64,000 nucleotides of DNA. Source: an uncultured Lachnospiraceae bacterium (GTDB lineage Bacteria > Bacillota > Clostridia > Lachnospirales > Lachnospiraceae). The stretch spans positions 62,001-126,000 of the forward strand of contig CAMWFQ010000002.1 in assembly GCA_947173495.1 (NCBI GenBank), written 5' to 3'. The first letter of the stretch is position 1. Every line of letters begins with the position of its first letter. Both the position numbers and the translations under genes were made by a program. Below the pieces are notes generated by a model, which was not told the origin of the DNA, ran no database searches, and worked only from the letters and a program-made list of their open reading frames with translations. Below, one piece after another: positions 18,414 to 51,486 of this stretch.

Positions 18414-18442
18414 AATATATGATACTTTGTCCAAGTTATTAC
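18414..18442 (-). promoter_or_regulatory. Candidate sigma-E promoter of the spoIIIA operon
   Basis: On the minus strand GTAATAA (18442-18436) is followed after 14 bases by CATATATT (18421-18414). The latter matches the -10 consensus CATAYAHT of sporulation sigma-E; the -35 match is partial. In Bacillus this operon is sigma-E dependent. The predicted transcript would start only about 12-15 nt before the ATG, which is tight for the ribosome binding site. Confidence 0.4.
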
Positions 18443-18473
18443 ACAAATCGAACATGGAAAATTTTCCTGTGCA

Positions 18474-18560
18474 ATCGAGTAGGGAAGAGCTATCTTCCCC
18501 TACTCGCGCGCGGCCCGCACGCCGCGTCAGCAGCAAATTTCCCTATGCGGGCCTGCGCAT
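18474..18560 (-). repeat. Family A structured repeat, copy 1 (stem-loops 2 and 3)
   Basis: Read on the minus strand it begins ATGCGCAG immediately after the pnp terminator, which takes the place of stem-loop 1. Stem-loop 2 has arms GCCCGCA / TGCGGGC, a purine-rich internal bulge and an inner stem GCTGC/GCGGC capped by TGAC. Stem-loop 3 has arms GAGTAGGG / CCCTACTC, and the copy ends in CTCGAT. Related copies at 45717-45842 and 51366-51486 keep the pairing with different bases. Located between pnp and spoIIIAA, about 30 nt before the sigma-E-like promoter. Confidence 0.75.
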
Positions 18561-18594
18561 AAAAAAAGCCCGGGAATCTGGTTTCGATTCCCGG
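18561..18594 (-). terminator. Rho-independent terminator of pnp
   Basis: Minus-strand stem CCGGGAATC / GATTCCCGG with a seven-base loop followed by GC and seven T residues, 20 nt after the pnp stop codon. It also occupies the stem-loop 1 position of the adjacent family A repeat. Confidence 0.88.
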
Positions 18595-18614
18595 ACAATG
18601 AATTATTATTCTGT

Positions 18615-45668: not shown

Positions 45669-45716
45669 ATATTTCCTCTCTATTCTCAGTCGGGCAGAGC
45701 GGATTTTCTCCTTATG

Positions 45717-45842
45717 ATCGAGCAGGGGAGGCTTTTTCTCCCCTGCCCGCCGCGCGGCCTGCACGCCGCTTTAGCGGCATATTCCTCTGTGCAGGCCTGC
45801 GCATTAGGAAGAGGAAGCAAAGATAGCGCCTCTGCTCCCTCT
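45717..45842 (-). repeat. Family A structured repeat, copy 2, between binding-protein and GH78 genes
   Basis: Minus strand: stem-loop 1 (GAGG.AGCA / TGCT.CCTC, 45810-45842), then ATGCGCAG, stem-loop 2 (arms GCCTGCAC / GTGCAGGC with inner stem GCCGC/GCGGC and TAAA loop), then stem-loop 3 (GCAGGGGAG / CTCCCCTGC), ending CTCGAT. It fills most of the 190-nt gap. Compared with the other copies the arms differ but remain paired. Three stable hairpins after a binding-protein gene could protect its mRNA or lower downstream expression; that is inference. Confidence 0.75.
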
Positions 45843-45858
45843 ATCCTAACATATTCTG

Positions 45859-51316: not shown

Positions 51317-51365
51317 ATACTTTTCCTCCTTGCCGGGGCTCTTTTGGCTTTCCGACTGTTATTCA

Positions 51366-51486
51366 ATCGAGCAGGGGATGCTTTTTCTCCCTGCTCGCCG
51401 TGCGGGGCGCACGCTGCGTCAGCAACAACTTCATCTGTGCGCCCCTGCGCATGATAATAGAAGCCCTGCGAAACATGGATTCTATT
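51366..51486 (-). repeat. Family A structured repeat, copy 3, between iorB and paaK
   Basis: Minus strand: stem-loop 1 (AATAGAATCC / GGGCTTCTATT, 51456-51486), then ATGCGCAG, stem-loop 2 (GGGGCGCAC / GTGCGCCCC with inner stem GTTGC/GCAGC and TGAC loop), stem-loop 3 (GAGCAGGG / CCCTGCTC), ending CTCGAT. The unit is 121 nt, the same length as copy 1. Stem-loop 1 shares no sequence with the other copies but occupies the same place. Confidence 0.75.

Follow-up and report, generated by a model that had tools for sequence, protein, structure and literature searches.

The window, that is, the whole stretch of 64,000 nucleotides that was analysed, carries three copies of one small unit on its minus strand (Table 1). 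Copy 1 has pnp before it and spoIIIAA downstream. Copy 2 neighbours a gene with a weak match to substrate-binding proteins and an alpha-L-rhamnosidase-like gene, and copy 3 lies within an operon, next to an indolepyruvate oxidoreductase beta gene and the gene of an AMP-binding enzyme. The unit starts at its 5′ end with ATGCGCAGG and ends with CTCGATT (CTCGATC in copy 2). Hairpin 1 has a long stem, interrupted on one side by a loop of about 10 bases, and an inner stem of 5 bp; hairpin 2 comprises about 11 bp, and AT at the 5′ end and about 3 bases at the 3′ end stay unpaired. Folded as RNA, the copies are more stable than their shuffled sequences (z = −6.1, −7.5 and −4.8 for copies 1, 2 and 3). 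A sequence-only reading of this DNA had described the three copies, all of which are present, as an element of 121–126 nt with three stem-loops. The conserved unit is 88–89 nt long and the stem-loop 1 of that reading lies outside: it differs from site to site and is either the terminator of the host, as at copy 1, or an unrelated hairpin, so that two hairpins remain for the element. The arm changes that had been quoted for these two hairpins are correct. At copy 1, relatives have the pnp terminator at the same place without the element.

Table 1 Copies of the element in the window and the hairpins or remnants next to them.
Feature	Position	Strand	Remarks
pnp intrinsic terminator, directly before copy 1, outside the element	18561..18596	-	−20.6 kcal/mol, z −5.0, then T7
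Element copy 1 (88 nt)	18473..18560	-	hairpin 1 18558-18508; hairpin 2 18506-18476; free ATT tail; 103.4 bits
Possible remnant of an older unit behind copy 1 (GCACAGG...TTCGATT)	18441..18472	-	by eye; no model match on the strand
Hairpin before copy 2, outside the element	45805..45848	-	−26.1 kcal/mol, z −4.9; without T-run, fails the T-run test
Element copy 2 (89 nt)	45716..45804	-	hairpin 1 45802-45752; hairpin 2 45749-45719; 97.3 bits
Weak hairpin before copy 3, outside the element	51453..51486	-	−8.6 kcal/mol, z −2.6; by eye resembles the second small repeat (L020)
Element copy 3 (88 nt)	51365..51452	-	hairpin 1 51450-51400; hairpin 2 51397-51368; 91.4 bits

The pairing of both hairpins is conserved. 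In alignment A2, which holds 42 copies of the same genome (41 of them distinct), 96.0% of the cells pair and both sides have changed at 11 of 27 pairs; in alignment A5, which holds 50 matches from other genomes and was fitted to the covariance model, which favours it, 91.8% of the cells pair and both sides have changed at 24 of 27 pairs. In covariation tests that kinship among the copies inflates for both alignments, A2 surpassed all of 500 shuffles in the share of paired cells, in double changes and in covariation score, 39 of 500 came up to its count of pair types, and no measure of A5 was reached by any of 500 shuffles. Pairing is lost in A2 and in A5 when the partner columns are shifted by 1–3 positions. 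The double-sided changes postulated from three copies therefore hold within the genome and beyond it, and the repeat is a real, dispersed, covarying hairpin element. Since this conserved pairing could act in DNA as well as in RNA, a new RNA family, which had been offered as one reading, does not follow from it.

The claim of dispersal was borne out by further copies. The pattern ATGCGCAGGNNNGCA occurs 61 times without mismatch in the 4.58-Mb draft genome, its reversed control not once. For covariance model R1, 42 of the 61 copies were used, picked without any upstream condition; left out were 12 in which the script found no end motif and 7 that are short or truncated. Against the own genome R1 gave at least 149 matches at E ≤ 0.01, a lower bound because 150 of 2167 candidates were scored. 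The loci examined for units (30 from the exact pattern and 96 further stretches) hold 163 non-overlapping units at about 26 bits or more and 181 including weaker ones, and an HMM made from the units found 196 units in 120 arrays, 55 of which comprise at least two units. Dispersed copies have unrelated flanks. Two places with different flanks share one and the same 89-nt sequence, which we count as a sign of recent activity.

In the wider genome_contigs records at least 109 stretches with the pattern were found. Among the 80 loci listed, 41 have a model match, in records titled Lachnospiraceae, Eubacterium, Acetatifactor, Roseburia, Agathobacter, Clostridiales or ‘uncultured bacterium’, and the 39 loci without a match include unrelated taxa (for instance Pseudomonas and Akkermansia) as well as some Lachnospiraceae. 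These loci are uninformative on targeting because the scan pattern demanded TTTT. Spread by phages or plasmids was considered as well: blastn with one copy gave no match in plasmids or phages, and none of 45 viral contigs with the short pattern had a model match. Comparison with Rfam revealed no known family. The whole window gave no match at gathering scores, and in a search at E ≤ 5 with the region of one copy the best score was 27.4 bits against a cut-off of 60, which is nowhere near. We found no description of the 88-nt element in the open-access literature, a search that covers few of the subscription journals.

The position of the element is as characteristic as its fold. An array head was counted as lying behind a terminator if a run of four or more T occurs within the last nine bases before it and a hairpin below −6 kcal/mol lies close upstream. 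Both features are found directly upstream of 75 of 114 array heads; taken singly, the T-run occurs at 82 and the hairpin at 101 heads. For comparison, of 539 positions drawn at random from the same loci and strand, 3.9% have the T-run, 36% the hairpin and 1.1% both (n = 6), and on the opposite strand at the 3′ side the T-run is found in 7 of 124 cases and the combination in 1 of 124. Many of the 39 heads that fail the joint test, to which copies 2 and 3 of the window belong, follow a strong hairpin whose T-rich tail is shorter. Under a slightly different head rule, which gives 120 heads, T makes up 73–83% at each position from −1 to −5, and upstream of this tract the sequence turns G+C-rich, as at the foot of a terminator stem. 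Copies from other genomes that were fetched by the model without any T-run condition behave in the same way: 17 of 20 abut a run of at least three T and the other three (L070, L322, L325) have a T-run within two bases, a count made by eye in which not all copies are independent and L066/L068 and L072/L073 look like shared sites. The orientation of the element behind the terminators is fixed, and its association with terminator T-runs is very strong.

A role as mRNA stabiliser, which had been suggested from the sequence, is unlikely for most copies because the element begins only beyond the T-run, at which transcription should already have stopped. Two copies lie directly after a short T-run behind a tRNA gene, with no simple terminator hairpin (L034:509-587 behind tRNA-Gly and L045:435-515 behind tRNA-Ala). 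On contigs C1 and C2 of the own genome (G000) all matches listed lie on the minus strand, and on C4 all lie on the plus strand. This bias may just follow gene orientation but could reflect replication direction. A separate count of gene orientation was set aside as unreliable, 38 of 131 elements lying inside probably spurious ORFs.

Across the genus the element is distributed unevenly. In a comparison between species, with one genome per species, matches at E ≤ 1e-5 were obtained for 21 of 37 species and none for the other 16. The own genome has at least 119 such matches, G020 has 63 (63–67), G048 has 44, G012 has 23, G040 has 22 and G005 has 8, and the remaining genomes have 0–4. Individual sites also differ between species. 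Between gapA and pgk, loci that were matched in 33 of the 37 genomes, an internal terminator (GGACCGGACCC or close variants, followed by a T-rich tract) recurs in all loci read, and the model has a match at 5 of 30 loci, the own one included. In G000, G045, G040 and G048 the match starts at the T-rich tract itself or only a few bases away. The match in G052 is weak (E 0.006), with another hairpin in between. The HMM adds a second unit in G000, and G051 has a shortened copy that was seen by eye and missed by the model; the other 24 loci have neither a model match nor a copy recognisable by eye. At the pnp site the model matches 1 of 30 loci, that of the own genome, three of these loci being without gap length and one running into masked bases. 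In G008, G003 and G013 the pnp terminator is followed almost directly by the conserved AACTTGGACAAA or a close variant. No copy is recognisable at the site of copy 3 in the three relatives G012, G020 and G021. Target duplication is evident neither at gapA-pgk nor at pnp. The site differences between species support mobility of the element. As in miniature mobile elements, orthologous sites are occupied or empty (between species) and near-identical copies are dispersed.

The same distribution bears on the question whether the host itself retains the element behind its terminators. An RNA or DNA element serving the host as a termination back-up, in transcript processing or as a protein-binding site, and kept in place by selection, would have conserved pairing and a place behind terminators, and REP elements elsewhere are credited with such roles in the part of the literature that we consulted. 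However, most related species lack the element behind the same conserved terminators, the 16 species without matches at E ≤ 1e-5 do without it altogether at this threshold, no gene class was prominent by eye, and exact abutment to the T-run needs no selection on the host. We therefore regard a host-serving element as very improbable. The internal gapA-pgk terminator (GACCTTAAGGGTCCGGTCTTATGGACCGGACCC) is itself nearly constant in the loci read (L379–L408), and this conservation suggests a regulatory role of the terminator.

Where several units lie together they are arranged head to tail with a period of about 83–94, and the arrays look polar. With all units found by the HMM taken into account, the terminator-proximal unit resembles copies elsewhere more closely than the other units do on average in 46 of 55 arrays, while 9 arrays show the contrary (sign test, p 4e-7). 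Nearest identity averages 0.92 for the first unit, 0.87 for the second and third and 0.83 for the fourth. Since the head motif served to select 61 loci, the count is partly biased; where the loci came from the model instead, the polarity is found in 25 of 28 arrays. With covariance-model units only, which miss units found by the HMM, 33 of 40 arrays agree, with 6 against and 1 tie, and in model-fetched loci 16 of 19. The simplest reading of these polar arrays is that new units enter beside the terminator. Between the type of hairpin 1 and the loop type of hairpin 2 no linkage was seen (p 0.16, with crude classes); such free combination is compatible with recombination inside arrays. Truncated heads were considered as ends of a larger coding element and are by eye deletions instead. 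The near-identical tandem units of L241 (G000:C2:298836-299231), with a period of 87, continue up to where contig C2 ends, and there are further copies close to contig ends (L204 and L211, on C21 and C25), which suggests that there are longer arrays that break the assembly.

We consider it probable that the 88-nt repeat, with its at least 149 matches, is non-autonomous mobile DNA that a trans-acting enzyme would join to the T-tract at the 3′ foot of terminator hairpins; a REP/PATE-like mobile DNA hairpin that targets terminators is the best reading of the element. With 88 nt the repeat is too short to encode an enzyme, which would have to act in trans. We propose that this enzyme cuts one folded strand of the element and joins it behind the terminator hairpin at the T-tract; the DNA that moves would be a single folded strand, in the manner of IS200/IS605 and REP systems. 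Hairpin 1 might serve as the recognition end, and hairpin 2 together with the GATT tail might imitate a hairpin with its T-tract, so that the end of the element and its target would be alike to the enzyme. New units would enter at the terminator, and older units would be pushed away from it. The element lacks terminal inverted repeats, ATGCGC at one end and CTCGATT at the other not complementing each other in the A2 consensus, and no duplication of the target can be seen. Together with the constant orientation and a hairpin close to either end, these are the marks of single-strand transposition as described for IS200/IS605 and REP systems (PMC6006769, PMC8266576).

Like the REP, BIME and REPIN sequences, which are described in the available parts of the sources as short intergenic hairpin repeats that occur in more than 100 copies, are amplified in some species, are often grouped and are non-autonomous (PMC2817692, PMC3733652, PMC6006769), our element is high-copy, intergenic, hairpin-forming, uneven between species and grouped. 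In contrast to REP, it consists of two hairpins in a fixed 88-nt unit, is repeated in direct tandem behind terminator T-runs, and resides in a genome without a Y1 gene. The tag of REP, according to the same excerpts, is a GTAG/GTGG (or CGTC) tetranucleotide at the hairpin foot. In the A2 consensus a GT[AG]G tag is absent from the hairpin feet, GTAG occurring only inside the stem of hairpin 2; AT alone precedes the stem of hairpin 1, and a G+C-rich linker precedes hairpin 2. With PATEs and other IS200/IS605 derivatives the element shares subterminal hairpins, the lack of inverted ends, the lack of an evident duplication and insertion 3′ of a T-rich target, as far as the consulted text on PATEs goes (PMC7290912). 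It differs from PATEs, IS200 and REP in that there is little room for a tetranucleotide guide 5′ of hairpin 1 and no guide is evident, and from PATEs in that its target was judged by a hairpin plus a T-run. Among the loci read, no full-length, tnpA-carrying element with the same ends was seen. The suggestion of a mobile REP-like element thus stands as far as a dispersed, covarying, possibly mobile and REP-like repeat is concerned, and falls as to strict membership in REP, there being neither a GTAG-type tag nor a Y1 gene here.

A stricter version holds that a Y1 transposase of the IS200/RAYT type moved the element and has since been lost from three of the richest genomes or is missing in their assemblies. 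Short hairpin repeats with fixed orientation, without terminal inverted repeats and without evident duplication speak for it, and Y1 genes (PF01797) are present in 21 of 37 genomes of the genus (11 of 24 and 10 of 13), including the rich G040 and G048. However, PF01797 is absent from G000 (97% complete), G020 (94%) and G012 (59%), the element is not near any of the 6 Y1 loci searched in the genus, and the tag at the hairpin foot is lacking. This explanation is therefore unlikely in our view.

A second possibility is that a reverse transcriptase acting in trans converts a small structured RNA into DNA at terminators, in the way that group IIC introns choose their site. The accessible text on these introns states that they insert behind a terminator stem-loop (or attC) in the same orientation (PMC7923331), and our element likewise sits behind a terminator hairpin in the same orientation. 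Unlike the introns it is 88 nt long, shows no intron domains in the Rfam search, and is abundant in a genome (G020) without a reverse transcriptase match. Hairpin 2 contains more G·T than A·C cells (36 to 15 in A2, 63 to 21 in A3, 76 to 30 in A4 and 32 to 18 in A5, partly from one inherited pair), and RVT_1, which was searched in 24 of the 37 genomes (a set without G040 and G048) and has matches in 17, gives two matches each in the own genome and in G012. Hairpin 1 shows no such wobble excess (9 to 6 in A2, 24 to 20 in A3, 32 to 57 in A4 and 25 to 40 in A5), so that the wobble cells single out neither strand as the active one, G020 with its 63–67 copies has no RVT_1 match, one of the two matches of the own genome falls in an open frame with Cas1, and Rfam, intron domains included, gave no match. 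RNA-mediated copying is thus quite improbable.

Searched in 37 genomes, PF04986 (IS91-type Y2) has matches in 9 and is absent from all five rich genomes (G000, G020, G048, G012 and G040), and none of the Y1, Y2 and RVT_1 classes fits all element-rich genomes. ORFs beside elements in other species are by eye ordinary genes. The RVT_1 match at G000:C5:212140-212760 (L261) lies in an open frame of 935 aa that also has a Cas1 domain (PF01867, E 3e-84) and is, judging from its domains, apparently an RT-Cas1 fusion; G012 too has a 935-aa frame with RVT_1 (L262).

Among other Firmicute repeats, the pneumococcal BOX, RUP and SPRITE are presented, in the part of the source that we used, as intergenic stem-loop repeats that are judged parasitic, BOX being modular with tandem boxB (PMC3049150). 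The sequence and architecture of our element are different, and SPRITE resembles a terminator whereas the element sits behind one. An insertion sequence of the IS1272 type is reported to act on stem-loop-forming targets, the inverted repeat of which is said to be replaced (PMC5678879, partial text); in contrast, the element leaves the terminator intact.

Returning to the terminator-targeting mobile hairpin that we favour, what is new here is the landing site of the element behind terminators. The landing pad would be a generic gene feature, the intrinsic terminator, read by its structure and not by its sequence, and such targeting would explain how more than 140 copies are carried without gene damage. 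More tentatively, and with some doubt, we speculate that the element represents an undescribed class of mobile DNA, in which an 88-nt unit is moved by an enzyme outside the Y1, Y2 and RT groups, any terminator is recognised by its shape, the 3′ end of the unit itself mimics a terminator, and the arrays are polar. Every array would then be an ordered record of past insertions, and if the polarity holds, arrays give a time order of these insertions. If it is found, the enzyme could serve to put DNA behind genes without harm. With the gapA-pgk terminator occupied in some species and free in others, the targeting can be tested directly.

A second, smaller hairpin repeat of about 34 nt (ATAAG-stem-CTCGCGAAGCGTG-stem-GTTTG, with variable arms) also occurs behind terminators, for example between gapA and pgk in several species (L390:1949, L394:2030, L396:1954, L398:2045), at L202:612 and perhaps in the window before copy 3 at 51453-51486. 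A strict expression for this repeat found 5 copies in 641 kb of loci (reversed control 0), and a looser motif found 4 in 198 kb (control 1). In G051 the second repeat lies between the terminator and the shortened 88-nt element.
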